From Candidatus Latescibacterota bacterium (GTDB lineage: Bacteria; JAAXHH01; JACQVL01): a stretch of DNA of 19,734 nucleotides. The notes under the pieces are model-generated. The model saw only the letters and a list, made by a program, of their open reading frames with translations. It ran no database searches and was not told the origin of the DNA. The stretch lies in NCBI GenBank assembly GCA_016209865.1, contig JACQVL010000175.1:1-19734 (forward strand). The letters are read 5' to 3'. The translations under genes and the position numbers were made by a program. Position 1 is the first letter of the stretch, and the number at the start of each line of letters is the position of its first letter. Below are positions 5,561 to 18,927 of this stretch, in pieces.

Positions 5561-5598
5561 GCAGTGACGAGTGACGAGTGACCAGTGACGAGTCAAAA
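5561..5598. repeat. GTGACGA heptamer array, copy 1 of a 38-bp direct repeat
   Basis: GTGACGA, GTGACGA, GTGACCA and GTGACGA follow in tandem from 5564, then GTCAAAA. The 38 bases differ at only two positions from 12256-12293 in the same orientation. It starts five bases after the amidohydrolase stop. Confidence 0.9.
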
Positions 5599-5612
5599 AG
5601 GTGATCCGCAAT

Positions 5613-5658
5613 AGCCCCGAAGGGGCGATAGAGAATAGCCCACGGCGCAAGCCGTGGG
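5613..5658. repeat. Double GC hairpin repeat upstream of the dehydrogenase
   Basis: Two stems occur in succession: AGCCCC-GAA-GGGGC at 5613-5626 and CCCACGGC-GCAA-GCCGTGGG at 5639-5658. The first is the reverse-oriented match of the 2841-2853 hairpin. No T-run follows, so it reads as a REP-like unit rather than an intrinsic terminator. Confidence 0.75.
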
Positions 5659-5687
5659 TGGGAATCGGTAGAAAGGATTGAACCACG

Positions 5688-6833
5688 TTGGAATCGAGCC
5701 AGGCATCTCCCGAATCCCGAATCCCGAACCCCGAACCCCGTCTCACCCGAGTCTCCCCCGAACGCCTGACCGACTTCTGCGTCCGGGCGATGACGACGGT
5801 AGGGATGACCGAAGCGGACGCCCGCATCACCGCCGGCATCCTCGTCCGCACCGACATGCGCGGAATCTTCACCCACGGCACCGTCTCACTGCGACGGTAC
5901 GTCCAGCAGATGCGGGACGGCGGGGTGAACCCGCGTGCGGTGCCGCAGGTCACGTCCGAGGGGCCTGCGTGGGCGCTCGTCGACGGCCATCGGGCGCTCG
6001 GCATGGTCGCCGGGCATGCTGGGATGATGGCCGCGATCACCAAAGCCAAAACAACCGGAGTGGGGATGGTCGGCGTCCGTCACAGCAACCATTTCGGTGC
6101 TGCCTCCGCTTACGCGCTGATGGCGCTGGATCATCAGATGATCGGACTGGCGATGAGCAATACCGACGTCGTCATGAACATCCCCGGCGGGCGCGGCGCG
6201 ATGATCGGCAATAACCCGCTGTCATACGCGATCCCCGCTGGCGCGCAGCCAGCGATGGTGCTCGACATCGCTATGAGCACCGTGGCGGGCGGCAAGGTCG
6301 CCACGATGAAACATCTGGGAAAGCCCGTCCCGTTGGGCTGGCTCACGGACGGCGACGGCCAGCCGACGACCGACCCCGGCGTGTTTCCATCCCCCGGCGC
6401 GTTGACCCCGATGGGCGGGCACAAAGGGTACGGCCTGGCCCTGCTCGTCGAGACACTCGCCGGAGTCCTGGCGGGCGCGGCGATGACGACCGATATCATC
6501 TCCTGGGCGAAGGAGACGCATCAGCCGTGTGATGAGGGACATTCGTTCATCGCCGTCAACGTCGGTGCGATGATGCCCTTCGACCGCTTCCAGGCGCGGA
6601 TGGATGAACTCATCGCCCGGATGAGGACGGCGCCGAAAGCGAAGGGCGCTGAGCGCATCTACGTCCCGGGCGAGATGGAATATGAGAGCGAGCAAACCGC
6701 CCGCCAACATGGCGTCCCACTGACCGAGATGGCCGTCAATAGCTTGAAGGGACTGGCGGAGGATCTGGACTTGCACACGTATCTTCCCTTTGATCATTCC
6801 GCAATCCACAACCCACAATCCGCAACTCAATGA
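5688..6833 (+). CDS. Ldh2-type malate/L-lactate/ureidoglycolate dehydrogenase family oxidoreductase
   Basis: An NAD(P)-dependent 2-hydroxyacid dehydrogenase of the Ldh2 (not Rossmann) family, 381 residues against roughly 330-360 usual. Diagnostic blocks are AGILVRTDMRGIFTHG, GVGMVGVRHSNHFGAA (with the catalytic His), MSNTDVVMNIPGGRGAMIGNNPLSYAIPA and PMGGHKGYGLALLVE. The extra length lies at the ends. Residues 5-19 come from a CCCGAAT heptamer array, and the last residues (AIHNPQSATQ) from an AATCCAA-like array that leads into the TGA. The TTG start at 5688 follows AAAGGA, but the true start may be further in, around residue 20-30. Paralogous functions include sulfolactate and ureidoglycolate dehydrogenases. 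The next gene's GAGGT overlaps the stop, so the two are probably co-translated. Confidence 0.88.
   Translation: MESSQASPESRIPNPEPRLTRVSPERLTDFCVRAMTTVGMTEADARITAGILVRTDMRGIFTHGTVSLRRYVQQMRDGGVNPRAVPQVTSEGPAWALVDGHRALGMVAGHAGMMAAITKAKTTGVGMVGVRHSNHFGAASAYALMALDHQMIGLAMSNTDVVMNIPGGRGAMIGNNPLSYAIPAGAQPAMVLDIAMSTVAGGKVATMKHLGKPVPLGWLTDGDGQPTTDPGVFPSPGALTPMGGHKGYGLALLVETLAGVLAGAAMTTDIISWAKETHQPCDEGHSFIAVNVGAMMPFDRFQARMDELIARMRTAPKAKGAERIYVPGEMEYESEQTARQHGVPLTEMAVNSLKGLAEDLDLHTYLPFDHSAIHNPQSATQ
5709..5736. repeat. CCCGAAT/CCCGAAC heptamer array inside coding sequence
   Basis: Four exact 7-bp units (CCCGAAT, CCCGAAT, CCCGAAC, CCCGAAC) are followed by CCCGTCT. They encode the SRIPNPEP-like N-terminal residues of the dehydrogenase ORF. 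Confidence 0.9.
6802..6830. repeat. CAATCCA-type heptamers at the dehydrogenase C-terminus
   Basis: CAATCCA, CAACCCA, CAATCCG and CAACTCA are four in-register 7-bp units immediately before the TGA stop at 6831. They are translated as the last residues of the protein. Confidence 0.85.
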
Positions 6834-6840
6834 GGTATCC

Positions 6841-7710
6841 ATGCCACGCATCAACAAAGCTATCGAACTCTTCGAACAAGGCCAGCCGGTCTACTACACC
6901 GGACCGCCGGGCGTGACGTACGAGGGCGGGCTGGCGGCCGCCAGCACATGGGCGGATTATCTGATCGTCGAGATGGAGCACGGACTGTTCGACCTGTCGC
7001 GGCTCGAAGCGTTCATGCACGGGCTGGTCGCGGGCGGCCCGACGCGAAGCGGCCACCGGACGCCGGCGGTGATCACCACCTTGCCGGTGGAGGGGACGAG
7101 CGAGGCGGTCATCCGGGCCAATGCCTGGATGATCAAACAGGTTTTGGCGCGGGGCGTGCATGGGATTCTGTTATGCCATGCGGAAACGCCCGACGCGGTG
7201 CAGGCGTTCGTGGAATCGGCGCGGTTTACGTTCCAGGCACTGGGGGTTGGGAATCGACTCGGCCCAGGCCGTCGTGGAGCGGGTGGACAGGGACAGGCGG
7301 CAGCCGTGTGGGGCCTCTCACCCGATGAGTACCTGACGCGGGCGGATGTCTGGCCGTTGAACCCACAGGGCGAGCTGATGCTCGGTCTGAAGATCGAGAA
7401 CCAACGCGCCCTGGCCAACGTCGAATCGACCCTGCGCGTCCCCGGCATCGCGTTCGCCGAATGGGGGCCGGGGGACATGGGGATGTCGTTCGGCTACCCG
7501 AATCAGCATGACCCGCCGTACCCGCCGGAGATGATCGCCGCGCGGTCGCGCGTCCGCGACGCGTGCCAGGCGACCGGGGTCGCCTTCCTGGATTCTGTCC
7601 GGGTTGATAACATCATCCAGCAGCTTGCGGACGGCGTCAGGATCGGAGCCGGGCCGGTTGAAGCGGTGGAGATCGGCCGGAGGCACACGAAGCGCGAGAT
7701 GCCGTGGTAG
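6841..7710 (+). CDS. Divergent HpcH/HpaI-like aldolase/citrate-lyase fold protein
   Basis: A 289-residue TIM-barrel protein related to HpcH/HpaI aldolases. Aligned positions keep H47 (LIVEMEHGLFD), the metal glutamate E186 (GLKIENQRALANV) and the metal aspartate D212 (WGPGDMGMSFGYP). The block IKQVLARGVHGILLCHAETPDAVQAFV matches the family core. The usual active-site arginine segment (RVP, seen as R71 in the other copy of this window) reads TTLPVEG instead, and an insertion of about 30 residues (GVGNRLGPGRRGAGGQGQ region) precedes WGLSPDEYL. ATG 6841 has GAGGT overlapping the previous stop. The altered active site suggests a different substrate or reaction from the first aldolase. Confidence 0.82.
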   Translation: MPRINKAIELFEQGQPVYYTGPPGVTYEGGLAAASTWADYLIVEMEHGLFDLSRLEAFMHGLVAGGPTRSGHRTPAVITTLPVEGTSEAVIRANAWMIKQVLARGVHGILLCHAETPDAVQAFVESARFTFQALGVGNRLGPGRRGAGGQGQAAAVWGLSPDEYLTRADVWPLNPQGELMLGLKIENQRALANVESTLRVPGIAFAEWGPGDMGMSFGYPNQHDPPYPPEMIAARSRVRDACQATGVAFLDSVRVDNIIQQLADGVRIGAGPVEAVEIGRRHTKREMPW

Positions 7711-7714
7711 TGGT

Positions 7715-7835
7715 ATTTTGGATTTTGGATTTTAGATTTTGGATTGAAATCGGCCTCTCACGAAGTTCCGAGTCTTGCACACCGTGTCAATCCAAAAGCT
7801 GTCAATCCAAAATCCACAATCTAAAATCCAAAATT
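7715..7835. repeat. Pair of AATCCAA heptamer arrays forming an inverted repeat
   Basis: The T-rich arm 7715-7746 (ATTTTGG/ATTTTGG/ATTTTAG/ATTTTGG/ATTG) and the A-rich arm 7803-7835 are imperfect complements of about 32 bp. They enclose 56 bases with a further TCAATCCAAAA copy near 7788. The interval holds no gene. The downstream gene's AGGAG follows the right arm. Confidence 0.88.
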
Positions 7836-7851
7836 CACAGGAGTCCTCAGT

Positions 7852-8964
7852 ATGCCAGACAATCACACGCCGATCCGTTACGGGATGTTCCTCATGCCGG
7901 TCCACGACCCGGCCAAACCTCCGGCGCAGTGTTACGACGAGGATTTAGAGTTGATCGTCCGAGCCGAGGAGTTGGGGTTTACGGAATTCTGGGTCGGGGA
8001 ACACCATTCGTCGAGCTACGAGAACATCGTCATGCCTGAAATCTTCATCGGTCTCGCCCTCGGCCTCACGAAGACGATCCGTCTGGGCGCCGCGCCGGTC
8101 TGCCTGCAGTACCACCACCCGGCGCACGTGGCGTGCCGTTTAGCGTTCCTCGATCACCTCTCGCACGGCCGGCTGAACGTCTGCTTCGGCCCGGGCGCGA
8201 TTCCCACCGACATGGAGATGTACGGAGTCGACCCGAAACAGAGCAGCGCGATGGTCGCAGAAGCGATCAACATGATCATGACGCTGTGGACGACTGACCC
8301 GCCATACCACATCGACGGCCAGTTCTGGCAGATTCACGTCGAGAAACAACTCATCCCCGACTTGGGGGTTGGAGTGTACCTCAAGCCCCTCCAGCAACCG
8401 CATCCGCCTGTCGCCGTGCCGGTGATCAACCGGAATTCAGCGGGCGTGCGGATCGCGGGGGAGAAGGCATACAACCCGTTCAGCCACCACATGGTCGCGT
8501 CCAACGTCCTGGCCAACCACTGGCAGGTCTACGAAGAAGGCGCGCGCAACGCGGGTCACGAGCCGAATCGGCGAAACTGGAAAATCTCGCGCAACATCTT
8601 CGTCGCGGAGACGACGAAGGAAGCGAAAGAGAAAGCCCGGACGACCTCGCTCGGCAAATGCCTCGAATACATCCTGCAACTCGTCGACCGGGGTCCGGGC
8701 CGGGGGATGTGGAAACGCGACCCGACCATGCCGGATGCCGACTGCAACCTGGATTACCTGCTGCAAGACCAGGTCGTGGCTGGTGATCCTGATGAGGTCG
8801 TCCGTCAGTTGTTGCGAATGATGGAAGAGACGGGCCGATTCGGCACGCTGGTGATGGTGGCGCACGATTGGGACGACAAAGCGGCGTGGATCCGCTGTCT
8901 GGAATTGTTCGCCAACGAAGTCATGCCGCGGCTGAATAGGAAACTGATGGATTTTGGATTTTAG
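7852..8964 (+). CDS. LLM-class flavin-dependent oxidoreductase 1 (luciferase-like monooxygenase)
   Basis: A 370-residue TIM-barrel flavin/F420-type oxidoreductase of the bacterial luciferase-like superfamily. It opens with IRYGMFLMPVHDPAKP, then AEELGFTEFWVGEHHSSSYENI and the core LAFLDHLSHGRLNVCFGPGAIPTDMEMYG, a pattern close to proteins annotated as limonene-type monooxygenases. The expected role is FMNH2-dependent oxygenation of a small organic compound, with a separate flavin reductase supplying FMNH2. No reductase is seen in the window. ATG 7852 follows ACAGGAG. The final residues KLMDFGF and the TAG stop are encoded by a heptamer repeat, so the original C-terminus was probably altered slightly. 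It is strongly paralogous to the gene at 9937. Confidence 0.92.
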   Translation: MPDNHTPIRYGMFLMPVHDPAKPPAQCYDEDLELIVRAEELGFTEFWVGEHHSSSYENIVMPEIFIGLALGLTKTIRLGAAPVCLQYHHPAHVACRLAFLDHLSHGRLNVCFGPGAIPTDMEMYGVDPKQSSAMVAEAINMIMTLWTTDPPYHIDGQFWQIHVEKQLIPDLGVGVYLKPLQQPHPPVAVPVINRNSAGVRIAGEKAYNPFSHHMVASNVLANHWQVYEEGARNAGHEPNRRNWKISRNIFVAETTKEAKEKARTTSLGKCLEYILQLVDRGPGRGMWKRDPTMPDADCNLDYLLQDQVVAGDPDEVVRQLLRMMEETGRFGTLVMVAHDWDDKAAWIRCLELFANEVMPRLNRKLMDFGF

Positions 8965-9080
8965 ATTTTGGATTTTGGATTGGGGAAAAGAGCATGGATG
9001 AGCAAGAGTTCGCAGATGAGATCATCGCGATGACCGTGTCCTCTATTAAGACACTCCGGAGGAAGAAGTGAATCCAAAAT
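8949..9080. repeat. AATCCAA heptamer pair around a 25-codon ORF
   Basis: The T-rich arm 8949-8982 (GGATTTT/GGATTTT/AGATTTT/GGATTTT/GGATTG) supplies the LLM stop codon. A short A-rich arm AATCCAAAATC lies at 9071-9081. Together they form a weak inverted pair enclosing about 88 bases. Confidence 0.8.
8994..9071 (+). CDS. Possible 25-residue small protein (doubtful)
   Basis: An ATG ORF of 25 codons starts MDEQEFADEI and ends in the basic run KTLRRKK, lying between two repeat arms. The only ribosome-binding candidate is a GGGGAAAAG about three bases before the ATG. Its charged, helix-like composition is unlike translated repeat sequence. It could be a real small protein, the tail of an eroded gene or chance. 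No family recognised. Confidence 0.2.
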   Translation: MDEQEFADEIIAMTVSSIKTLRRKK

Positions 9081-9097
9081 CAAACCGGGAGCCTTCC

Positions 9098-9835
9098 ATG
9101 TCTGCCATCAACTTCGCCGATTCGTACATGACCTTCACGACGCCCGACCGGTCGAACACCGCCCGGATTCAGCTCGACGCCCACTGCCGGCTGGTGGACG
9201 AGGAGAAAGGCGCTTCAGATGAATTCGTCCTGATCGCCCCGTGTCGGGCGGAGAGCATGTACCTGCCGGACGGCCTCTTCAGAATCCCCAACTATGAGTT
9301 CTGCGGCATCTTCGGGACTGAGACGTTCATGATCATCCGGACAGGCCCCTCCACCGCGCACGGACTGGACAACCGGGAGCCGGGGCTGAATCAGCAGCGC
9401 TTCCACGAGGTGCGGATCGACATCCGGACGTTCCCCCGGACGCGGCTGCTCCAGAACGATGAGGAGGTCTATCAGGCGACTTTAGCCAACCTGCCGCTGA
9501 TCGCGCGGACGGAGGTCCATAACACGGCGAGCCACGTCCGGGCGGTCATCGAATACCCGATCAAGACGATGAACGTGTCCCCTCAGACCCACCGGTTTCA
9601 GGTCGATACCGGTCCGGTGCTGTTGCCGGATTTCATCGCTCAGCGCGAACATCTGGTCGAACGTTTCGTCATCGCCCACGTCGTCTACAACACCTTCGAC
9701 CGCGCGGAATTCGTCATCCGTCAGCCGACACCCATCGTGCAGGACGGCCGGGAGGTGGCGGCGGTCATGGATTATCAGGGCATCACGGTGATGCCCGCCC
9801 GCCATCAGATCGTGTGCGCGGACATGACCATGTAG
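9098..9835 (+). CDS. Unrecognised 245-residue protein between two LLM oxidoreductase genes
   Basis: I do not recognise a family. The protein has no signal peptide or membrane segment and reads as a soluble beta-rich domain (FVLIAPCRAESMYLPDGLFRI, YEFCGIFGTETFMIIR, FHEVRIDIRTFPRTR). Histidines and acidic residues are scattered, with no metal motif. ATG 9098 is chosen over an upstream GTG at 9068 because GGGAG lies about eight bases before it and the upstream codons are repeat-derived. Its position between two paralogous luciferase-like genes on the same strand suggests a partner or accessory function, such as substrate handling or a small-molecule-binding subunit. The TAG stop is the first part of a MITE-like repeat. 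Confidence 0.75.
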   Translation: MSAINFADSYMTFTTPDRSNTARIQLDAHCRLVDEEKGASDEFVLIAPCRAESMYLPDGLFRIPNYEFCGIFGTETFMIIRTGPSTAHGLDNREPGLNQQRFHEVRIDIRTFPRTRLLQNDEEVYQATLANLPLIARTEVHNTASHVRAVIEYPIKTMNVSPQTHRFQVDTGPVLLPDFIAQREHLVERFVIAHVVYNTFDRAEFVIRQPTPIVQDGREVAAVMDYQGITVMPARHQIVCADMTM

Positions 9836-9902
9836 GGGCGAAGCATTTGCGGATGAGACATGGAGGGGCGTCTCAAATGGAGCGACAAATGCTTCGCCCC
9901 CA
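9833..9902. repeat. MITE-like inverted repeat (TAGGGGCGAAGCATTTG type)
   Basis: GGGGCGAAGCATTTG at 9835-9849 is perfectly inverted at 9886-9900, with an inner GAGAC/GTCTC stem at 9855-9859/9870-9874. The whole is about 70 bp with no coding capacity. The bases TAG at its left edge serve as the stop codon of the preceding gene. From memory, this sequence type is common as a dispersed repeat in cyanobacteria and some other phyla. That has not been checked. Confidence 0.85.
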
Positions 9903-9936
9903 CAACGTGCCTACATTGCCCCCACAGGGAGGATGC

Positions 9937-11016
9937 ATGCAATACGGAATGTTCATCATGCCGTTTCACGACCCGGCCAAGCCATTAGCGCAGTGCTACG
10001 ATGAGGATTTGGAACTGATCGTGCTGGCGGAGGAACTCGGCTTTACCGAGTTCTGGATCGGGGAACACCACACGATGAAGTACGAAAACATCGTCATGCC
10101 GGAGATCTTCATCGGCAAGGCGTTAGCGATGACGAAGCGGATTCGCATGGGGCCGGCCCCTGTCTGCCTGCAGCAGCACCATCCCGCCCACGTCGCCAGC
10201 CGTCTGGCGTTCCTGGATCATCTGTCCCACGGCCGGCTGAACATCTGCTTCGGGCCGGGCAGCGTGACGGCGGACATGGAGCTGTACGGGGTCGACCCGA
10301 AGAACAACCCTGCGATGGTCGAGGAAGCGGCGGACATCATCCTCCAACTGTGGAGCCAGGACCCGCCCTACCATGTCGATGGACAATTCTGGAAGTTCAA
10401 ACTGGAGAAGTACGTGGATCCCGAGACGCTCATCGGCTACATCCACAAACCCTATCAGCGCCCCCATCCTCCGCTGTTCGCGCCAGCAATGACCCTCAAT
10501 TCTCCGACGATGCGGACGGCCGGAACGCGGGGATGGTCGCCGATCAGCAGTCCGCTCATCACGGGCAACGTCGTGGCGAACCAGTGGCAGGTCTACGAAG
10601 CGGCGGCGCGGGCGGCCGATCACACCCCCAGTCGGGCGGACTGGCGGGTCGCGCGCAGCCTTTTCATCGGAGAGACGACGAAGGAAGCCCAGGCCACAGT
10701 CCGCACCAATTCCTTGGGCAAGAACTACCAGTACATCGGCCGGCTGTTCGACAAGGGCTTAGGCCGTAAAATGTTCAAGCGTGATCTCGACATGAGTGAC
10801 ACGGACTGCAACTTCGACTACCTGATGACCGAACAGATCATCGCCGGGTCTGTCGATGAGGTCGTCCGGCGATTGGAGCGGCTCATCGAGGAAACTGGCC
10901 CGTTCGGCATGTTGACCCTGATGAGCTACGACTGGGACGACAAGGCTGCCTGGGTGCGCAGCATGGAGCTGTTCGTCCATGAAGTCATCCCGGCGTTGAA
11001 CAAGAAAGGATACTAA
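9937..11016 (+). CDS. LLM-class flavin-dependent oxidoreductase 2
   Basis: A 359-residue paralogue of the gene at 7852, with the same landmarks: MQYGMFIMPFHDPAKPLAQC, AEELGFTEFWIGEHHTMKYENI, LAFLDHLSHGRLNICFGPG and a C-terminal YDWDDKAAWVRSMELFVHEV. ATG 9937 follows AGGGAGGA. An upstream ATG at 9814 is rejected because those codons translate the MITE-like repeat. The expected function is reduced-flavin-dependent monooxygenation. The closely matching pair may form a LuxAB-like heterodimer or two homodimers with related substrates. The next gene starts four bases after the TAA, with AAGAAAGGA inside this gene's end, so the two are translationally coupled. Confidence 0.92.
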   Translation: MQYGMFIMPFHDPAKPLAQCYDEDLELIVLAEELGFTEFWIGEHHTMKYENIVMPEIFIGKALAMTKRIRMGPAPVCLQQHHPAHVASRLAFLDHLSHGRLNICFGPGSVTADMELYGVDPKNNPAMVEEAADIILQLWSQDPPYHVDGQFWKFKLEKYVDPETLIGYIHKPYQRPHPPLFAPAMTLNSPTMRTAGTRGWSPISSPLITGNVVANQWQVYEAAARAADHTPSRADWRVARSLFIGETTKEAQATVRTNSLGKNYQYIGRLFDKGLGRKMFKRDLDMSDTDCNFDYLMTEQIIAGSVDEVVRRLERLIEETGPFGMLTLMSYDWDDKAAWVRSMELFVHEVIPALNKKGY

Positions 11017-11020
11017 AACA

Positions 11021-12253
11021 GTGAACGCTCACCCCGAACACACGTGGGGACACACGATCGCGTTTGGAGAAGAGTACTATCAGAATGTCGTCAAGCTCTT
11101 GTGGCATGTCCGTGGGGAGGCGGGCGTGATCGCGGGGGTCTCCGCCATCGCGGCAGACGCTCTCCGGGCCGGTCACAAAGTCTACGCCAACGTCACGACT
11201 GGCCACATGCCGACGTACGAGCTGGTGAACGAACGCGAGGGCAACCCGGCGCTGTTCGAGTTTACCGGGTCGGATGAGTGTACCCCCGAACAGTTCGCCG
11301 CGATGCAGGCGGGAGATGTGCTGTTGACGAACCACATCAGCGATGCAGAACGGGCGGCGCGGGACGCGGGGGTGTACGTGGTCATCTTTACGACGTGCTA
11401 CTTCAACAACCGCAACACTCCGCCCGGCAAAGTCCACCCCAACCCGCACGACTGGATGCCGGAAGACGTGGCCTCGCGCGTCATCGACTCCCATATTCCC
11501 TGGGAGCAGGGGCTCGTCCACGCGCCCGAAATCCCCGAGATGGCCGTCCTTCCAGGCTCCTCGAACGCGTCCTGCTCCATCCACTGGATGATCACCGCTG
11601 AGGTCGCGCATGCCCTGGCGACGGGCCTCATCCCGGACGGCACGATCGGACGCCAGTACGTGGATATCCTCCTGGAACGGCTCGCCGATGTCCATGCGCA
11701 CGACCTGGATCGTCTGAACGAGACGGCGGTGACGATGGTGAAACGCATCATCGGGGGCGGCCACTACTTCGTGCGGAGCCGGAATCAGGGGGTGGCGTCG
11801 GAGGCCACAGGGGTGGCGCAAGGGCTGATGCTGGTCAATGCCTTTGAGCCGCGTCTCAAGGACGAGGGGGGCGACACGGACACTGTCCTGATCGCGGCGG
11901 TCAGCCCGAACGACCCGCAGGACCTGGCCTGGGCGGACGAAGCGCGGGCGAACGGCAACGTCATCGTCGGGATTGGCCCTCCCATCAATGACGGGTTGCG
12001 CGACCGCTGCGACGCCTACTTCGATGACCGGTGCGATGAACTGGCCGGCGTCATCTCCATCCCAGGCCGGGTGGAGCGGATTTGTCCGGCGACGGGCATC
12101 CTCAACAACATCATCATGCAGATGCTCACCGCGCAGTTCGTGGATGAGATGTGCCGTCGCGGCGCGGTTCCGTACTTCTGGATGGGCTTCTACCGGTACG
12201 GGGAGCAGTACAACAACGTGATGCGCTCCTTCTTCCTGGAGCGGGGATATTGA
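11021..12253 (+). CDS. Protein with two tandem SIS-like (sugar isomerase) domains
   Basis: A 410-residue soluble protein. Residues about 25-200 resemble SIS-domain phosphosugar-binding proteins (IAADALRAGHKVYANVTTGHMP, then AGDVLLTNHISDAERAARDAGVYVVIFTTCYFNN and PGSSNASCSIHWMITAEV). A second alpha/beta unit follows (VAQGLMLVNAFEP, DTDTVLIAAVSPNDPQDLAWADEARANGNVIVGIGPP, GILNNIIMQMLTAQFVDEM). GTG 11021 sits four bases after the LLM stop with a good ribosome binding site, so it belongs to that operon. SIS proteins bind or isomerise phosphosugars, and a link to luciferase-like oxygenases is not standard. The assignment rests on fold pattern only. Enzymatic function and substrate are unknown. Confidence 0.65.
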   Translation: MNAHPEHTWGHTIAFGEEYYQNVVKLLWHVRGEAGVIAGVSAIAADALRAGHKVYANVTTGHMPTYELVNEREGNPALFEFTGSDECTPEQFAAMQAGDVLLTNHISDAERAARDAGVYVVIFTTCYFNNRNTPPGKVHPNPHDWMPEDVASRVIDSHIPWEQGLVHAPEIPEMAVLPGSSNASCSIHWMITAEVAHALATGLIPDGTIGRQYVDILLERLADVHAHDLDRLNETAVTMVKRIIGGGHYFVRSRNQGVASEATGVAQGLMLVNAFEPRLKDEGGDTDTVLIAAVSPNDPQDLAWADEARANGNVIVGIGPPINDGLRDRCDAYFDDRCDELAGVISIPGRVERICPATGILNNIIMQMLTAQFVDEMCRRGAVPYFWMGFYRYGEQYNNVMRSFFLERGY

Positions 12254-12255
12254 GG

Positions 12256-12293
12256 GCAGTGACGAGTGACGAGTGGCGAGTGACGAGTCAAAA
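12256..12293. repeat. GTGACGA heptamer array, copy 2 of the 38-bp direct repeat
   Basis: Units GTGACGA, GTGACGA, GTGGCGA and GTGACGA, then GTCAAAA. It matches 5561-5598 at 36 of 38 positions in the same orientation. It starts two bases after the SIS-protein stop. Confidence 0.9.
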
Positions 12294-12297
12294 CACG

Positions 12298-12352
12298 CAG
12301 AGGGGCAGAGGAGCAGGGGAGCAGGGAAGACAAGGCGATAGAGGAAAGGGGG
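12298..12352. repeat. Purine-rich octamer-like repeat (AGGGGCAG/AGGAGCAG type)
   Basis: AGGGGCAG, AGGAGCAG, GGGAGCAG and GGAAGACA follow at 8-bp spacing, then a GAGGAAAGGGGG stretch that may double as ribosome binding site for the M48 gene at 12355. Confidence 0.65.
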
Positions 12353-12354
12353 AT

Positions 12355-13464
12355 GTGTCATTCCCGCGAATGCGGGAATCCATCGTCCTTTTGCTCCTCA
12401 TCGGATGTGTCTGCGTGGCGGCCGGCTGCGGGCCGAGTCTGAAACGGGTGCAGATTCCGGCCGAGGAGGTTCGGGCAGAACGAGCGCACGAACGCGAGAC
12501 TGCGTTCTCCATCCTGCAGGAGCGACAGCGTCGTCTCCTGGACGTCGCATACCCCCTGCTCATCGCTGCGACCGCGCTGTGCAAGGATACGGCGCAGATA
12601 ACCTACGGCTTCGAGTTACACGACAAAAAAAGTTATGGGAAAAAATACGAGGACATCGCGGCCCGTTATTATCGTCTTGACGATGGAGTAGTCGTTCGCT
12701 ACGTGCATCCGAGCCTCCCGGCCGCGTCAGCCGGCCTTCAGGTAGGGGACCGGGTGGTGGCGGTGAACGGACAGCGGGTGGAGGGAAAGAAGCTCGACGA
12801 GATCAGAAAGCTCATCCAGCAGCCGGACCCCATTCTTCGCCTGCGCATCGAGCGACAGACGCAGGCGATGGAACTGGAGGTGCGCGGCGTCCCGACCTGC
12901 CCGTACCGCGTCCGTATCTCCGACCTGGGAGAGGTGAACGCATTCGCCAACGGTGACGACATTACCGTGAACAGCGGGATGATTCGGTTTGCGGCGACGG
13001 ATGAGGACCTGGCCCTGGTCGTCGGGCATGAGATCGCCCACAACGTCCTGCGCCACAGCCTCAAGAAGCTCGGATATCTGCTGACCGGTTTGGCCGTGGA
13101 AATCTCGGTGCTCATCGGCCGTCAAGCGGTCCACAACGAGACGATCAGCGTGTTGATGGATATCTATATTTACGGTGCTCCGGCTGTCTTCATGAGATTG
13201 ATGGGACGGGCGTTCTCCAAGACGTTCGAGGCCGAAGCCGACTACGCGGGACTCTACATCACCGCCCGGGCAGGGTACGACATCACGCACGCATCCCAGT
13301 TCTGGCGGCGGTTGGCCACTGAATACCCCCGTCTCATCGAACGGCGGTTCCTGGCGACGCATCCGACGACCCCGGAGCGCTTCCTGGCTCTCCAGAAGGC
13401 CGCGCAAGAAATCCAGGAAAAACGGCAACGTGGGCAATCCCTTATTCCTGAGAAGAAAGATTAA
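12355..13464 (+). CDS. Lipoprotein PDZ-M48 metalloprotease
   Basis: A 369-residue secreted zinc protease. A hydrophobic signal (residues 9-20) ends in the lipobox VAAGC with C25 as lipidation site. A PDZ domain spans about 103-178 (YVHPSLPAASAGLQVGDRVVAVNGQ), then the M48 catalytic region with HEIAH at 225-229, the third zinc ligand E292 in FEAEAD and the late motif FLATHPTTPERF. Expected role: periplasmic or cell-surface protein quality control, like BepA/LoiP-type M48 lipoproteins, with the PDZ selecting substrates. GTG 12355 is preferred for its purine-rich ribosome binding site; ATG 12370 is the alternative. Either way the N-terminal residues are translated from a dRS3-like palindrome, and a second copy starts right after the TAA. 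Confidence 0.88.
   Translation: MSFPRMRESIVLLLLIGCVCVAAGCGPSLKRVQIPAEEVRAERAHERETAFSILQERQRRLLDVAYPLLIAATALCKDTAQITYGFELHDKKSYGKKYEDIAARYYRLDDGVVVRYVHPSLPAASAGLQVGDRVVAVNGQRVEGKKLDEIRKLIQQPDPILRLRIERQTQAMELEVRGVPTCPYRVRISDLGEVNAFANGDDITVNSGMIRFAATDEDLALVVGHEIAHNVLRHSLKKLGYLLTGLAVEISVLIGRQAVHNETISVLMDIYIYGAPAVFMRLMGRAFSKTFEAEADYAGLYITARAGYDITHASQFWRRLATEYPRLIERRFLATHPTTPERFLALQKAAQEIQEKRQRGQSLIPEKKD
12357..12383 (+). repeat. dRS3-like palindromic repeat supplying the M48 N-terminus
   Basis: GTC-ATTCCCGC-GAAT-GCGGGAAT-CCAT, with an 8-bp perfect stem at 12360-12379. It contains the ATG at 12370, and its right arm encodes the residues MRES. Confidence 0.88.
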
Positions 13465-13490
13465 TGGATTCCCGCCTTCGCGGGAATGAC
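13465..13490 (-). repeat. dRS3-like palindromic repeat after the M48 gene
   Basis: TGG-ATTCCCGC-CTTC-GCGGGAAT-GAC, starting on the base after the TAA stop. Its orientation is opposite to the copy at 12357-12383, so the protease gene lies between inverted copies. Confidence 0.88.
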
Positions 13491-13503
13491 ACCTGGCTAT
13501 GAC

Positions 13504-13534
13504 GAATGAGTGAAGATCGTGTTGTGCTCGTCAC
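13504..13534 (-). repeat. Left 31-bp arm of the composite inverted repeat
   Basis: It begins GAATGAGTGAAGATCGTG and ends in CTCGTCAC. It is the inverse of 15213-15243 with one mismatch, and is followed by two more GTGACGA-type heptamers in reverse orientation. Confidence 0.9.
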
Positions 13535-13569
13535 TCGTCACTGGTATTACCGACTGATGGAGACCTGCC

Positions 13570-14295
13570 ATGCAGAACACGCAGATCGAGATTACGGATG
13601 AGATGTTGCACCAATTACGCAACGTCAGCGTCCCGACGGTGACCGCGATGCTCGAGGCGAAGTTCCGGAACACGTACCTCATCGGGATTGAACCGAAAGC
13701 GCTCCAGCCGGGCCAGATCATGGTCGGCCGTGCCCGGACCCTCCGGTTCATCCCGAAACGGGAGACCATCCTGGAAGCCCAGTACGCGACGTCGGAGAAC
13801 CGGCCCCACCGGCAGGTGATCGAAGACATCCAGCCGGGCGATGTGCTGGTGATCGAGACCGGCGGCTGCCTCGGCGCCGCGGTCGTGGGGGATATGTTCA
13901 CCCGGCGCGTCAAGGAACGGGACGGGCAGGGGATCGTCATCGATGGGGTGGTTCGGGACATGTCCGCCATCCGGACGGTCGGCCTCCCGCTCTACTGCAA
14001 GGGGATGCACGGGTCGGGCATCGGGCGGGAGTTGATGGCGGTCGACTACGACCGGCCGATCAGCGTGGCCGGGGTACCGGTGTTCAAGGGCGATGTCATC
14101 CTCGGCGATGAGGACGGGGTCGTCGTCATCCCACCGGAAGGGGTGGCGGAGTTGATCGAGCACGGGATCGAGCACGACGTCCAGGAGCGATGGATCCGGC
14201 AGAAGTTAGCCGAAGGCTACCCGCTCCATCGGGTGTATCCCCCGGACGCGGAGATGGAGAAAGAGTACCGGGCGTGGCGGAAAGCCCAAGGGTGA
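13570..14295 (+). CDS. RraA-family protein, likely 4-hydroxy-4-methyl-2-oxoglutarate/oxaloacetate-type aldolase
   Basis: A 241-residue member of the RraA/HMG-aldolase family. Key positions are GGCLGAAVVGDMF (G107-D108) and GIVIDGVVRD with R129 and D130, the residues that bind pyruvate and metal in 4-carboxy-4-hydroxy-2-oxoadipate aldolases. VFKGDVILGDEDGVVVIPPEG is the conserved C-terminal block. The length beyond the roughly 160-residue RNase E regulator form, and the catabolic neighbourhood, favour an aldolase or decarboxylase over an RNase E inhibitor. ATG 13570 follows a GGAG at 13559-13562. With the PhyH gene it forms a two-gene unit enclosed by mirrored repeats. Retro-aldol release of pyruvate would fit the end of a ring-cleavage-type route. 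Confidence 0.85.
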   Translation: MQNTQIEITDEMLHQLRNVSVPTVTAMLEAKFRNTYLIGIEPKALQPGQIMVGRARTLRFIPKRETILEAQYATSENRPHRQVIEDIQPGDVLVIETGGCLGAAVVGDMFTRRVKERDGQGIVIDGVVRDMSAIRTVGLPLYCKGMHGSGIGRELMAVDYDRPISVAGVPVFKGDVILGDEDGVVVIPPEGVAELIEHGIEHDVQERWIRQKLAEGYPLHRVYPPDAEMEKEYRAWRKAQG

Positions 14296-14297
14296 TT

Positions 14298-14422
14298 CGA
14301 TTTTAGATTTTGGATTGGCGACCGTGGATTGAAGACCAGGGTTTTCTCAGAAGATGGTGGGGTATCAGTTGGGTCTGTGTGAACCTCTCTAATCCAAAAT
14401 CCAAAATCTAAAATCCAAAATT
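14298..14422. repeat. AATCCAA heptamer pair in inverted orientation
   Basis: The T-rich arm at 14298-14317 (CGATTTTAGATTTTGGATTG) and an A-rich arm at 14390-14422 of four to five heptamers enclose about 72 bases without coding content. It lies between the RraA stop and the AGGGGG ribosome binding site of the second phyH. Confidence 0.88.
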
Positions 14423-14437
14423 CTTACAGGGGGTCGT

Positions 14438-15202
14438 ATGATCTTACGCGAACAAGTCCTGGATTTCCACCGGGATGGGTTCGTCCTGGCGGAAGGAATG
14501 TTCAGTCAGGACGAAGTCGACGTCATGCTGGTGGCGGTCGAACAGTCGCAGCGGGTCGCGCAGACGACGTGGAGCGCGACGGACTCGGAAGGTCGATCCA
14601 GTAAGATCAGCCTGTGGATGGACATTGCCGATGATGTCCTCGGCCTGGTGAGCACGCATCCGCGCATCGTCAACAGTCTGCGTGTGTTGATGGGAGAGGA
14701 TGTGTACCACTGGCACAGCAAGGTCATGCTCAAGCTGGCCCGTGAAGGGGGGGCGTGGGAATGGCACCAGGATTACGGGTACTGGTACCATGACGGGTGC
14801 CCGTATCCACGGCTTGTGTCTGCGATGATCGCGCTGGATCGGGCGGATGAAGAGAATGGCTGCCTGCGGGTGCTCGTCGGCTCCCACCACCTCGGCCGAC
14901 TGGATCACGGTCGCGTGGGGTCTCAGACCGGCGCGGAGCTGGAGCGACTCGCGGCGATCGAGCGGCTCCTGCCGGCCCGGCTAGTCGAAGCAAGTCCGGG
15001 CGACGTGCTGTTCTTCCACTGCAACCTGCTCCACAGCTCCGGACCGAACCTGTCGGACCGTCCGCGACGCGCGTACATCTGCTGCTACAATGCGTTCTCC
15101 AACATCCCGATCATCGGCAAGGGTCACGGCGCGCCCGTGCCGATCCAGATGTGCGCAGACGACGCGATCGTCAGGGCAACGATGAATGCGGCGAATCAGT
15201 GA
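14438..15202 (+). CDS. Phytanoyl-CoA dioxygenase (PhyH) family oxygenase 2
   Basis: A 254-residue Fe(II)/2-oxoglutarate oxygenase with FHRDGFVLAEGMFS near the start. Metal ligands are H110 and D112 (WEWHQDYGYWYHDG) and H199 (NLLHSSGPNLSDRPRR), with R210/R211 for 2-oxoglutarate. The core EENGCLRVLVGSHHLGRLDHG is close in style to ectoine-hydroxylase-like PhyH proteins. It shares the fold but little direct sequence with the other PhyH protein of this window, so it is not a recent duplicate. ATG 14438 follows AGGGGG. The TGA stop lies inside the first GTGACGA heptamer of the following repeat, and ANQ at the C-terminus may be repeat-derived. The substrate is unknown. It is presumably paired with the RraA-type aldolase. 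Confidence 0.92.
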   Translation: MILREQVLDFHRDGFVLAEGMFSQDEVDVMLVAVEQSQRVAQTTWSATDSEGRSSKISLWMDIADDVLGLVSTHPRIVNSLRVLMGEDVYHWHSKVMLKLAREGGAWEWHQDYGYWYHDGCPYPRLVSAMIALDRADEENGCLRVLVGSHHLGRLDHGRVGSQTGAELERLAAIERLLPARLVEASPGDVLFFHCNLLHSSGPNLSDRPRRAYICCYNAFSNIPIIGKGHGAPVPIQMCADDAIVRATMNAANQ

Positions 15203-15243
15203 CGAGTAACCAGTGACGAGCACAACACGATCTTCGCTCATTC
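15199..15243 (+). repeat. GTGACGA heptamers plus right 31-bp arm of the composite inverted repeat
   Basis: GTGACGA, GTAACCA and GTGACGA run from 15199 to 15219, then GCACAACACGATCTTC and CTCATTC. Positions 15213-15243 match 13504-13534 inversely at 30 of 31 bases. The first unit contains the phyH TGA stop at 15200-15202. Confidence 0.9.
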
Positions 15244-15256
15244 TCCGCAGTCAATT

Positions 15257-15283
15257 GTCATTCCGCGCGAGCGGGAATCCATG
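15257..15283 (+). repeat. dRS3-like repeat running into the pabB start
   Basis: GTCATTCCGCGC-GAGCGGGAATCCATG is a slightly degenerate copy. Its last bases include the pabB ATG at 15281, and its GCGGGAA arm may act as a weak ribosome binding site. Confidence 0.8.
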
Positions 15284-16588
15284 ATTCAGTTTATGAATCC
15301 ATCATTCCTCATTCATCGTTCCGCCGTCGTCCTCTCCGGCCGCGACCCGTTTCTCATCGTCCGGGCGTGGGGGGATCGCGTCGAAGTGGACGACCGGGAG
15401 CGAGGGCGCACAGAGCGGTGGATCGGCGACCCGTTCGAGGTTGTCCGGAGTCTGCTCAACGACTCTGCGGTCGAAGGCAGCCCGGATGCCCCGCCGTTCC
15501 GGTCTGGCGGGGTAGTCGGGTATCTGGGCTACGGGCTGCGTCGCTGGGTCGAGCCGGTCCCGGTGAGGACGACGGATGAGCAAGGGGTACCCGACCTCTG
15601 GCTGGGGTGGTACCGGGAGGTCAAGGTCCTGGAATCGCCAAACAACGAGCGCGCGACGGGCCTCTCGCTGATGAACGAGGAGCCAGCCGGGCGTCTGCCG
15701 TCCTCTGCTGCTTCCAATTACACCAGAGACGTGTACCTTCGGACGGTCCAGCGTGTCAAGGAATACATCGCAGCGGGGGATGTCTACCAGGTCAACCTTG
15801 CCCAGCGGCTGGCTCTCCCGTACTCTGGGGCTGCCTCCGGCCTGTACCGGCGGCTTCAGCGCATCAACCCGGCCCCGTTCGCGACGTACTTAGACTGCGG
15901 AGATTTCCAGGTGGTCAGCGCGTCTCCGGAGCAGTTTCTGTTCTTCGACCCGTCCTCTCGCCGGGTGGAGACCCGGCCGATCAAGGGCACACGGCCGCGC
16001 GGCCGCACGCAGGCGGAAGACGAGTCGTTGGCGGAAGGCCTGATGACGAGCGAGAAAGACGGGGCCGAGCATCTGATGATCGTCGACCTGGAACGAAACG
16101 ACCTCGGGCGCGTCTGTAACATCGGGTCGGTCTGCGTCCCGGCGCTCCGGACGCTCGAACGCCATCCGACGGTCTGGCACCTCGTCTCCACCGTCCAGGG
16201 GCGGCTACGGCCTGACTGCGACCGGGTCGACCTCCTCCGTGCGACGTTCCCGGGCGGCTCGATCACGGGCGCGCCCAAGATCCGGGCGATGGAGATCATC
16301 GACGAGCTGGAACCGACCGCCCGTGGCGTCTATACCGGGGCGATCGGGTATTTGGGGTTCGACGGGTCGCTCGACCTGAACATTGCCATCCGGACCGTAG
16401 TCATAAAGGATGGGGCCGCTCGTTTTCACGTCGGCGGGGGAATCGTCGCCGACTCTGACCCGGCGGCCGAGTATGAAGAGACTCTGGATAAGGCCCGGGC
16501 GATCGTGTGGGCGTTGCAAAGCGGTGATGGGTGGTCAGTGGTCGGTAAAAGAATGAGAAAGCAATCAGTGGTCAGCGAAAGGCAGTGA
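15281..16588 (+). CDS. pabB: Aminodeoxychorismate synthase component I
   Basis: A 435-residue chorismate-utilising enzyme that converts chorismate (with ammonia from PabA) to 4-amino-4-deoxychorismate for folate synthesis. K235 in RPIKGTRPRGR is the PabB-type lysine, where TrpE has alanine. IAAGDVYQVNLAQR, DGAEHLMIVDLERNDLGRV, FPGGSITGAPKIRAMEIIDELE and GAIGYLGFDGSLDLNIAIRT are all family blocks, so the catalytic half is complete. The N-terminal region is shorter than usual. The enzyme domain ends near LDKARAIVWAL (residue 411), and the last 24 residues are translated GTGGTCA-type repeat. ATG 15281 (or 15293) follows no strong ribosome binding site. No pabA or pabC is present in the window. 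Confidence 0.92.
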   Translation: MIQFMNPSFLIHRSAVVLSGRDPFLIVRAWGDRVEVDDRERGRTERWIGDPFEVVRSLLNDSAVEGSPDAPPFRSGGVVGYLGYGLRRWVEPVPVRTTDEQGVPDLWLGWYREVKVLESPNNERATGLSLMNEEPAGRLPSSAASNYTRDVYLRTVQRVKEYIAAGDVYQVNLAQRLALPYSGAASGLYRRLQRINPAPFATYLDCGDFQVVSASPEQFLFFDPSSRRVETRPIKGTRPRGRTQAEDESLAEGLMTSEKDGAEHLMIVDLERNDLGRVCNIGSVCVPALRTLERHPTVWHLVSTVQGRLRPDCDRVDLLRATFPGGSITGAPKIRAMEIIDELEPTARGVYTGAIGYLGFDGSLDLNIAIRTVVIKDGAARFHVGGGIVADSDPAAEYEETLDKARAIVWALQSGDGWSVVGKRMRKQSVVSERQ

Positions 16589-16634
16589 CCAGCAAGGGCG
16601 CGAAGCAGCACGCCCGTCAGGACGAGTGACGAGT
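16531..16634. repeat. GTGGTCA/GTGACGA heptamers at the pabB end and downstream
   Basis: GTGGTCA and GTGGTCG at 16531-16544, a further GTGGTCA at 16568-16574, GTGACCA at 16585-16591 (holding the pabB TGA) and GACGAGTGACGAGT at 16621-16634. The 47-base gap before the phosphatase ATG contains nothing else recognisable. Confidence 0.75.
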
Positions 16635-16635
16635 T

Positions 16636-18771
16636 ATGGACCAGCGAGTCAAGAACCTTCCGATTTCGACTGGATACGGGTCGGGCCAGCGGCGGCATGT
16701 CACCCGGCGACTCGGACAGTTTCTCGCGCCGTCCACCCGGATGAAGCAGTGGACGTATGCCGGGTTGATCATGCTGATCCTCAGCTCCGTGTACCAGGTC
16801 GACCTGCTGGCGGCCGTGGCTTACCCGATCCTGATCGTCTGTGGCGCGTATTATCTGTGGAAAGTCGGGGGACTCCTCCGTGACCGGCTGTTCTGGAAAG
16901 TCCGCAATCGCATCCTGGCCTCCTTTATCTTTGCCGGTGCCCTTCCTATCTGTCTCGTCGTCCTCATCGGCCTGATCGTCGTCTGGTTTCTCATCGGCGC
17001 GATGGGAACGAATCGCACGGCGCGACAGTTCGAGGAGACGATCGACCGGCTCCATCATATCCCGACTCAAATCCAGCTCGAGCTCTACCGGACGGCCCTC
17101 TCCGGGAAATTCTCCCTGACCGATGCGGTGAACAAGACGCTGCAGACCAACCGGGACCTGCCGCATCTGTCGATCAGCGTGTTCGAGCGTCGGGGGAAGC
17201 GACTCAGCCTCGTCTCCACGATCCCGCCCGATTCTGCCGTGACAGACCTGCCGGCATGGGCGGCGGATAGTTCGTTTGCCGGGATCGTGACCGATGACCT
17301 CGCCGCCTATTTTCGCGCGATCTCCGGGATCGAAATCAAGGGCCGGAATATGTATATCCTCGCCTCGATCCCGCTGGACGAAGAATATCAGCGTGTCGTC
17401 CGGGAGCGGTCGGGCATCATGCTGTCCGGACTTCCGTTCTCCATCATCCGGCGAAGAGAAAGGCGGCTTATCATTCCCCATCCGCCGGGAGACCTTCCCC
17501 CCCTGCCGCCCCTGGATGGCTCCCTGTCCCCTCCTGCTAAAGTCATCCCTTCTCCGAAGACCGACCAGGTCGATCAGGCCTTGGGAGTCGGCGTGATCCA
17601 TCTCCCCTGGGGGAGCCCCTTCAGAGCGATCGAATGGGAAGAGGGGCCGAAGGTCGGCCCGTCTAACGGGGCCTTGGAGAAATCGTCCCGTGTGCTGTTC
17701 CTGACGATGTCCATCGACCCGGTCTGGATCGTCCGCGACTCCCTCACCGGCGATTTCGACATCATGAACCGGCTGGTCACCGCCCTGATCGTCCTGTGCG
17801 CGAGCCTGGCGGTCGTGGAGCTGATCTCATTCTCGATCGGGTTTGTGATCTCGCGCCGGATCACCTCCGCCGTCCACAACCTGTCGCTGGCCACCCAGGC
17901 GATCCGAACCGGAAACCTGGATTTTCGGATCGAGACGCGGAAACACGACCAATTAGGAGAACTGGCTCATTCGTTCAACGCGATGGCCCAGAGTATTCAG
18001 GTGCTGCTCGCGGAGGTGGCGGATAAGCAGCGGATCGAGGCTGAACTGGCGATGGCGCGTGATGTCCAGGCGCAATTCTTCCCCAAGCACATCCCGCGGA
18101 TCGGCCGCCTGGAGCTGATCGGCACCTGTATGCCCGCCCGGATGGTGAGCGGAGACTACTACGACTTCATCGTGCACGGAGAGACGATCCTGGACATCGT
18201 CGTCAGCGATATCTCTGGCAAGGGTATGGCGGCCGCGTTGATGATGGCCGGGCTGCAATCCGCCCTCCGCTCTCAGACGATGAGGGGGGACATCGAACCC
18301 CGTCCAGGCCGGCTGGTCCACACCGTCAGCCATCTCAACCGGTATCTCTGTCGGAATACCGCGCCGGACAAGTTCGCGACGTTGTTCCTCAGCTCCTACG
18401 ACCCGAAATCCTCGACCCTGTCGTACTGTTGTGCCGGCCATAACCCCCCGTACCTGTTCCAAAATGGGACGATCCTCCGTCTCGCTAAGGGCGGGATTCC
18501 GATCGGCCTGTTTCCCGACTGGTCGTATGAAGAAGCGACCGTGAAGCTCTCGGAAGGGAATCTCTTCGTCATGTATACGGACGGGGTGACGGAGGCGCAG
18601 AACCAGCGCGAGGAAGAGTTCGGGGAACAGCGGTTGGAGCGGGTCATCCGGGACTACGCCGGCCGGTCGTGCGAGGACATCCAGTCCCGCATCCTGGCCG
18701 CGGTCCGTGATTTTGCGTACGGAGCGGAACAATACGATGATCAGACGATCGTGGTCGGACGGGTGAGGTAA
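16636..18771 (+). CDS. Membrane HAMP-domain PP2C/SpoIIE-family serine phosphatase (RsbU-like)
   Basis: A 711-residue sensor phosphatase. There are hydrophobic segments at about 40-53, 56-75 and 93-120, an extracytoplasmic region of about 250 residues with a proline-rich stretch (PPGDLPPLPPLDGSLSPP), and a fourth membrane helix at about 378-403. A HAMP domain follows (RRITSAVHNLSLATQAIRTGNLDFRIE) and a short coiled coil (RIEAELAMARDVQAQFFPKHIP). The catalytic SpoIIE domain is complete, with D507 and D510 in SGDYYDF, D525 in DISGKGMAAAL, D649 in YTDGVTEAQN and D701/D702 in YDDQTIVV. It should dephosphorylate an anti-sigma-factor antagonist in a partner-switching pathway on an external signal. 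No antagonist or anti-sigma gene is nearby. ATG 16636 has a weak ribosome binding site because a heptamer repeat precedes it. Confidence 0.92.
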   Translation: MDQRVKNLPISTGYGSGQRRHVTRRLGQFLAPSTRMKQWTYAGLIMLILSSVYQVDLLAAVAYPILIVCGAYYLWKVGGLLRDRLFWKVRNRILASFIFAGALPICLVVLIGLIVVWFLIGAMGTNRTARQFEETIDRLHHIPTQIQLELYRTALSGKFSLTDAVNKTLQTNRDLPHLSISVFERRGKRLSLVSTIPPDSAVTDLPAWAADSSFAGIVTDDLAAYFRAISGIEIKGRNMYILASIPLDEEYQRVVRERSGIMLSGLPFSIIRRRERRLIIPHPPGDLPPLPPLDGSLSPPAKVIPSPKTDQVDQALGVGVIHLPWGSPFRAIEWEEGPKVGPSNGALEKSSRVLFLTMSIDPVWIVRDSLTGDFDIMNRLVTALIVLCASLAVVELISFSIGFVISRRITSAVHNLSLATQAIRTGNLDFRIETRKHDQLGELAHSFNAMAQSIQVLLAEVADKQRIEAELAMARDVQAQFFPKHIPRIGRLELIGTCMPARMVSGDYYDFIVHGETILDIVVSDISGKGMAAALMMAGLQSALRSQTMRGDIEPRPGRLVHTVSHLNRYLCRNTAPDKFATLFLSSYDPKSSTLSYCCAGHNPPYLFQNGTILRLAKGGIPIGLFPDWSYEEATVKLSEGNLFVMYTDGVTEAQNQREEEFGEQRLERVIRDYAGRSCEDIQSRILAAVRDFAYGAEQYDDQTIVVGRVR

Positions 18772-18772
18772 G

Positions 18773-18922
18773 GACAAAAGAGAAAGGACGAAGTGGTAAG
18801 GACGAAGGACGAAAAAGCCAGAATGAAGAACGAAGGTTCCTCATAACTGTCATCCCTGCGCAAGCGGGAATCCATTTTGTCCTTTTCGTCCTTCTTATTT
18901 GCTTTTTTCGTCTTTCGTCCTT
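18773..18922. repeat. AAGGACG heptamer arms forming a long inverted repeat between convergent genes
   Basis: AAGGACG, AAGTGGT, AAGGACG, AAGGACG and AAAAAGC run in 7-bp register from 18784 to 18818. The right arm 18901-18922 (GCTTTTTTCGTCTTTCGTCC and TT) is complementary to 18798-18818 apart from one substitution and one extra base. With T-runs on one side and A-runs on the other, it could serve as a bidirectional terminator for the phosphatase and the convergent minus-strand gene. Confidence 0.8.
18849..18874 (+). repeat. dRS3-like palindrome in the loop of the AAGGACG inverted repeat
   Basis: GTCATCCCTGCGCAAGCGGGAATCCA is a degenerate fourth copy in the same orientation as 12357 and 15257. 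It lies between the two heptamer arms. Confidence 0.8.
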
Positions 18923-18927
18923 GTCTT

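Follow-up and report, generated by a model that had tools for sequence, protein, structure and literature searches.

Bacterial heptamer repeats have been noted for more than 30 years, and we know of no accepted origin for them; nor, to our knowledge, does the common protein family PF05635 have a known function. Members of this family, called IVP or S23, are 23S rRNA-intervening-sequence proteins that form a four-helix bundle and are known from inserts in rRNA. Intervening sequences (IVSs) of 23S rRNA that carry an S23p/IVP open reading frame (ORF) are known in Leptospira, Coxiella, and others, and cyanobacteria are the classic heptamer-repeat clade. A published rRNA IVS combines an S23p ORF with a 28-bp terminal stem, tandem heptamers (GACAGAT) upstream of the ORF, and excision by RNase III (PMC4990558). 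Intergenic heptamers, mostly of about four units, have been described as GGGGATT in Nostoc and as GGGAATC in Xanthomonas, the latter forming 70-75 convergent pairs (PMC4692102). A general excess of 7-nt periods in bacteria was published earlier (Mrazek 2007), to the extent that this work is cited in PMC4679880 and PMC4692102.

Here we consider a stretch of 19,734 nucleotides from a Candidatus Latescibacterota bacterium (the window), in which approximately 11 of 17 gene junctions carry a period-7 array as called by TRF and by a direct self-match count. This agrees with the original prediction that heptamer arrays occupy most junctions. The arrays are probably the terminal arms of one kind of small inverted-repeat element (IVP elements), of which the window copies are gene-less and MITE-like. 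This interpretation draws on the period of 7, the G-to-C inverted pairing, the position at junctions, the dispersal of units, the bracketing of IVP genes elsewhere, and the alternative alleles of the same junctions, all of which are observed directly.

Period 7 is a property of the genome as a whole. A period-neutral search (21 compared positions, at most two mismatches) of 674 kb (61 stretches) from the window's own genome, G000, which is 83% complete, returned 67 arrays at period 7, seven at 14 (twice 7), four at 8, and one at 16, and zero at every other period in the range 2-20. Sequences generated by a first-order Markov model of equal composition gave none except two at period 2, and thus the predicted enrichment of period 7 over controls (67 versus 0) is evident. 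Period 7 was also the commonest (8 of 27) in a set of 80 loci that spans many phyla and totals 1.18 Mb. Period 8 ranks next after 7 and its double; an octamer array (GCAGAGGA) is located at 12297-12324 of the window, 3′ of the G-rich arm at 12258..12290, octamers also occur in other contigs, and 7/8-mer arms flank the IVP gene of Picosynechococcus PCC 7003.

G000 contains at least seven families of heptamers: AATCCAA, TCACTCG/TCACTCT, GACCACY, GACCCCT, CGTCCTT, AAYCCCG, and GCCCAYT. Among the five families named originally, arrays of AATCCAA, GTGACGA, CCCGAAT, and AAGGACG were confirmed, whereas GTGGTCA has only about two units in the window and is a common family elsewhere in the genome. These families had been called unrelated. 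Their sequences do differ, but each consists of one G-rich and one C-rich strand, a single pairing rule is common to all, and a single-step series (AGGGGTC, AGTGGTC, AGTGATC, AGTGACC, AGTGACG), every member of which is present, links families.

In the window, a G-rich arm of the AATCCAA family (ATTTTGG units) at 3707..3731 on the plus strand (TRF 3707-3730) abuts the stop codon of the gene at 2934-3713. A C-rich arm of the same family at 4595..4623 on the minus strand (TRF 4596-4623) is followed 2 bp further by the start of the gene at 4626-5555, and the two arms, with a dioxygenase gene (3784-4563) in between, are 96% complementary over 25 nt. A junction of mixed families holds a plus-strand G-rich arm of the GTGACGA family (5561..5593; TRF 5563-5593), located 5 bp 3′ of the stop at 5555, and a minus-strand C-rich arm of the CCCGAAT/CCCGAAC family (5708..5740; TRF). 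Inside this heptamer-bracketed junction there is an Acido-Lenti-1 RNA (RF01687, 55.8 bits) at 5613-5658 on the minus strand. A degenerate C-rich array of AATCCAC/AATCCGC units (6796..6828, minus strand) lies at a gene 3′ end. The junction 7710/7852 is filled by a complete gene-less element without strand assignment at 7715..7834, whose 31-bp arms (7715-7745 and 7804-7834; TRF) enclose a loop of 58 nt and whose RNA fold scores z = -5.7. Another plus-strand G-rich arm of the AATCCAA family (8948..8981; TRF) provides the stop codon of the gene at 7852-8964, and its degenerate C-rich partner (GAATCCAAAATC; 9063..9081, minus strand) lies 5′ of the gene at 9098.

Further along, a plus-strand G-rich arm of the GTGACGA family (12258..12290; TRF 12258-12288) begins 4 bp 3′ of the stop at 12253, and a short minus-strand C-rich arm of the CTCGTCA family (13527..13545; TRF 13527-13542) precedes the gene at 13570. 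A complete gene-less element at 14296..14423, also without strand assignment, consists of a degraded arm (14300-14330, with its degenerate copy at 14300-14316), a loop, and an arm at 14391-14421 (TRF). A degenerate G-rich array of the GTGACGA family (15189..15226, plus strand) spans the stop of the gene at 14438-15202, and the two or so GTGGTCA/GTGGTCG units (16531..16546, plus strand) at the 3′ end of the gene at 15281-16588 fall under the array threshold. In the junction 18771/18928, a plus-strand G-rich arm of the AAGGACG family (18798..18813; TRF) and a minus-strand C-rich arm of the CGTCCTT family (18871..18929; TRF 18906-18929) form a G-to-C pair that encloses a GTCATTCCCGC-type palindrome. 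The palindrome GTCATTCCCGCnnnnGCGGGAATCCAT occurs at 12355-12383, 13463-13492, 15255-15282, and 18848-18876, has dozens of genome copies, and is frequently found within or adjoining heptamer elements. Separately, an IS110-like transposase reading frame occupies the window edge (1-1374), and a perfect 20-bp inverted repeat (1514-1533/2455-2474, region 1514-2474) flanks an apparently broken transposase.

The elements of the window have terminal inverted repeats of approximately 25-31 bp, and their spacers contain no ORF and no IVP remnant. For this reason, we file them as gene-less relatives of the IVP/IVS elements and not as members.

The arrangement of arrays follows a strict polarity. Neighboring arrays no more than 200 bp apart in G000 run G-rich then C-rich in 39 cases and C-rich then G-rich in none. 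Reverse-complement pairs of the same family are G-first in 50 of 50 cases in G000 and by 50 to 7 in other sequences, where most exceptions belong to GGTCCAA, a family that is close to balanced. Distances to the nearest gene edge have a median of 5-6 bp, as judged from our own gene calls, which were made by codon usage without a standard gene finder. Of 35 array pairs, 21 lie within 30 bp of both flanking genes, and the median leftover of the junction is 16 bp. Length is bounded as well, with only 1.4% of arrays reaching 42 bp (6 units) or more. The A-family arm is a 31-mer of four units plus three bases, which can also be read as a trinucleotide repeated five times with 4-nt spacing (ATT-TTGG-ATT-TTGG-ATT-TTAG-ATT-TTGG-ATT). 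In G055, the loop lengths of A-family hairpins (L097, L193-L212) are quantised, with 14 nt in 10 of 18 and 21 nt in three, and the loop sequence is variable.

Perhaps the host keeps such sequences as regulatory sites or as hairpins at mRNA ends, acting as terminators, stabilisers, or translational controls of the kind proposed for TAACTGA. Arrays do adjoin stop and start codons, and the RNA hairpins are stable, with fold z scores from -3.3 to -10.9 for five elements and +1.0 for a single-array stretch. Furthermore, divergent junctions carry fewer arrays than others. Nevertheless, arrays occur at both gene ends and at divergent junctions too, loops are not conserved, and close plasmids gain or lose whole elements (see below). 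No selection for RNA pairing was seen in the arms, where A-C mismatch variants and G-U variants are about equally common in both; G-U variants are thus not preferred over mismatch variants, and RNA-level selection acting through G-U pairing is rejected because the arms show no asymmetry. In family-A elements, variant units in one arm seemed coupled to those in the other, but with a Fisher P of 0.18 this suggestive pattern carries no weight here. We consider a host-kept regulatory role to be unlikely as the explanation for the arrays.

Some elements are dispersed as discrete, sharply bounded units. The 107-bp element at 17696-17802 of L062 is 91.6% identical to 9336-9442 of L069 over exactly its own length, with unrelated flanks, and an inverted copy is present in L286. 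Similarly, the window element (14296-14417) has a second copy at 1740-1854 of L024 with 80% identity that is confined to the element. A repeated spacer in L043 was rejected as a dispersed copy because it is a tandem gene duplication. Other loops are mostly unique in the 0.9 Mb of sequence compared, and most share no sequence with the IVP gene or among themselves. Among 29 elements there is no excess of flank repeats that would represent target-site duplication, and comparison of empty with filled sites indicates that insertion replaces a few to approximately 36 bp. DDE-type transposition, as for MITEs derived from insertion sequences, is rejected on the lack of target duplication.

The original prediction was that the common unit length may reflect a generating mechanism and not descent of sequence. 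The 31-mer has its units in the same modal order in G000 and G055, and among the 31-mers listed, those with a single variant unit carry it at position 3 in 19 of 25 cases across four genome families, which argues for common descent.

These observations bear on in-place slippage, in which a DNA polymerase whose footprint favors 7-nt steps would build the arrays where they stand (Mrazek 2007). As quoted in PMC4679880 and PMC4692102, this has been published as a general tendency, and it accounts for period 7 without a mobile element. One rRNA IVS even has two to three heptamers among strains (PMC4990558), and therefore slippage does edit arm length. However, it does not yield G-to-C inverted pairs, bounded length, whole-unit dispersal, or a modal order of units common to several genome families, nor does it yield the bracketing of IVP genes or the empty and filled alleles described below. 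Slippage alone is thus improbable and is rejected: the pairing, the length limit, and the dispersal speak against it, and the arrays are neither open-ended nor partnerless.

The link between arrays and a gene comes from other bacteria. In genome G055, long G-to-C pairs enclose a four-helix-bundle IVP gene. Within the plasmid collection, IVP is nearly restricted to cyanobacteria, where the heptamers around plasmid IVP genes include GTCAGGA, GTGTAGG, GGGAACA, GTGACAG, AGGGAAA, and AGTAGGG, and where the IVP gene is mostly co-oriented with surrounding genes. A strict G-to-C bracket at period 7 encloses 14 of 26 IVP genes, and brackets at periods 4-6 and 8-13 enclose none. The same strict period-7 bracket was found at 2 of 34 other genes from the same loci (P = 4e-5) and at 8 of 466 genes of G000 (P = 6e-15). 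It is absent from the remaining 12 of 26 IVP genes, some of which have weaker inverted repeats, with L304 having none. Inverted 18-mers that match at 16 or more positions flank 17 of 26 IVP genes and 0 of 34 control genes. All 14 aligned proteins match the PF05635 and TIGR02436 profiles. The phage proteins of L295, L296, L334, and L335 were excluded from these counts as weak and probably not IVP, and a search of the phage collection for IVP returned none. The suspected kinship with cyanobacterial heptamers is real. IVP genes also lie within CRISPR-Cas operons (cas10/cmr3 and cas6/cas4) at 2001-2357 of L300, 1992-2351 of L301, and 1977-2345 of L303, and hitch-hiking may lie behind the link to CRISPR that has been reported for IVP.

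A G-to-C order would likewise result if broken ends were healed by a telomerase-like process, but we discount this reading in view of the dispersal of entire units and the IVP genes that they enclose. It might also be imagined that a reverse transcriptase, retro-type or DGR-like, copies the arms. IVP is distantly related to Avd, a protein of DGRs: nine of the 14 IVP proteins match the Avd model weakly, and the homology is noted also in PMC10053308. However, RVT_1 has no match in the array-positive genomes G000, G011, G013, G016, and G055 and is present in the array-free relatives G002, G003, G010, and G012. With array-rich genomes lacking RVT_1, this origin is rejected as very unlikely. The original prediction was right to suppose one kind of process behind differing sequences, but generation by slippage in place or by a retro-type process is unsupported in view of the bounded arrays, the inverted pairs, the sharp-ended units, the modal 31-mer shared with other genome families, and the absence of RVT_1 matches.

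Another candidate system is that of REPIN-like mobile hairpins moved by RAYT, a Y1 transposase. The anatomy matches, in that conserved inverted arms surround a variable loop in extragenic positions, and Y1_Tnp genes are present in G055 (19) and G044 (8). Against this, PF01797 has no match in the 83% complete G000 or in G013, and heptamer arms are not themselves palindromes. Furthermore, 12 Y1_Tnp loci carry no heptamer arms, apart from one unrelated AT-rich run. A RAYT/REPIN origin is rejected on the missing Y1_Tnp of G000 and the missing arms at these 12 loci, and we regard it as most improbable.

The preferred reading, in which the arrays are arms of IVP elements, is consistent with the distribution of PF05635 across genomes. 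This family is present in 155 of 384 genomes (a background of 40%), yet it is carried by 11 of 11 genomes with the A-family 31-mer, by 16 of 17 with exact arrays of families A, B, or C (P = 3e-6), and by 23 of 26 when mirror-pattern arrays are added (P = 2e-7), where the P values are only a guide because genomes are not independent draws. A contrast within the order, in which PF05635 occurs in 3 of 3 array-positive genomes and 0 of 13 others, is better controlled than the all-genome values. Some genomes in which no array of these arm families was found carry IVP as well. G000 has three PF05635 matches (C104:10068-10382, C153:20310-20618, and C67:16654-16968; best E 2e-38), which places candidate trans-acting IVP genes in the same genome as the window. 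Within G000 itself the link between arrays and IVP rests on co-occurrence, and arms at IVP genes are seen in other bacteria. In G023, 19 PF05635 matches were counted, many of them paired in opposite orientation at a distance of a few hundred bases.

Related cyanobacterial sequences reveal the same junctions with and without an element. The cas10-cmr3 gap is 12 bp in Picosynechococcus PCC 7002 and holds an IVP element of approximately 450 bp in PCC 7003. The Nostoc plasmid junction TTCTAGGTTATG is empty in L311 and L314 and holds 419 bp in L297, and the 518-bp element of L298 is absent from three Nostoc plasmids (L317-L319). A second IVP element of L311 interrupts a TAATG stop-start overlap, which is unbroken in L310. 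Gene-bearing and gene-less forms also alternate: one junction holds an IVP element with GGGAACA arms in L302/L322 and a 213-bp gene-less element of the same arm family in L320, whose flanks are 97% identical. A further junction is occupied in L312 and L314 by a gene-less element whose arms are of the AGTCAGG family, which also forms the arms of the L297 IVP element. In L315 and L310 the loop of this gene-less element contains another, nested element, and the junction is empty in L297, L311, and L313. The original prediction had named fragments of one ordinary mobile element as the outcome that would speak against it. In modified form this outcome is borne out: the arrays appear to be ends of one kind of element, with many arm sequences.

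On this evidence, a full IVP element would consist of a G-rich array of 3 to 5 units, an IVP gene, and a complementary C-rich array, spanning approximately 420-520 bp, and the gene-less version would be reduced to an arm, an unrelated loop, and an arm. In the window, elements lie 3′ of one gene's stop codon and 5′ of the RBS or start of the gene that follows, so that they do little harm to either reading frame. By analogy with 23S rRNA IVSs, the stem of 25-31 bp would fold in the co-transcribed mRNA and be cut by RNase III, making insertion into operons tolerable. IVP might act in trans and recognize the arms of gene-less copies. It is also tempting to speculate on why the period is seven. Each of the two solved IVP structures, one of which is XCC0516 of Xanthomonas campestris (PDB 2gsc), contains five chains, and the arm has five ATT-type triplets; thus, a ring of five IVP subunits could read one triplet each. 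If such a ring fixed only the spacing, the arm sequence would be free to change.

A broader proposal, which we offer tentatively, is that most bacterial intergenic heptamer arrays (cyanobacterial STRR, Xanthomonas GGGAATC, Beggiatoaceae TAACTGA, and many families of uncultured phyla) might be arms of one widespread class of selfish element whose sole gene is IVP and in which a five-fold IVP ring, by reading five equally spaced triplets, dictates the period. The 7-nt excess, the convergent Xanthomonas GGGAATC pairs, and the rRNA IVSs with heptamers are already published. The tie of heptamer arrays in general to IVP is apparently new, since the open-access literature yielded no paper joining the two, and novelty is judged with that reserve. 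Heptamer arrays and PF05635 could then be tested together as a single system, namely a minimal mobile element that makes its home in the few bases separating a stop codon from a start codon. The intervening sequences of rRNA may have arisen from such elements, which would also account for the repetitive tails that many proteins predicted from uncultured bacteria show.

The heptanucleotide long simple sequence repeats of Mrazek et al. (2007) have the same general excess at period 7 and, as far as the work is quoted, are treated there as made by slippage. The TAACTGA repeats of Beggiatoaceae (PMC4679880) resemble the present arrays in lying beside start codons, in their patchy distribution over phyla, and in a suspicion of horizontal transfer, but they are mostly unpaired direct repeats and have been read as translational control sites. 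The present arrays also fit the description of cyanobacterial STRR, a descriptive and not a mechanistic term, and share tandem intergenic heptamers with Nostoc GGGGATT and Xanthomonas GGGAATC; moreover, X. campestris encodes IVP. The latter two were interpreted as quadruplex-forming or slippage repeats with no link made to IVP (PMC4692102), and here, unlike there, several families occur per genome under one polarity rule. REPINs have inverted conserved arms, a variable loop, and a dispersed extragenic distribution in common with our elements, whereas their arms are palindromes in place of heptad arrays, and no RAYT was detected in G000. The 23S rRNA IVSs share the IVP ORF, a terminal inverted repeat of 25-31 bp, upstream heptamers, a size of 420-520 bp, and tolerated insertion. 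They differ in that IVSs reside in rRNA helices, whereas the elements here occupy mRNA gene junctions, nearly all G000 copies are seen without an ORF, and the arrays number in the hundreds per genome with many arm sequences.
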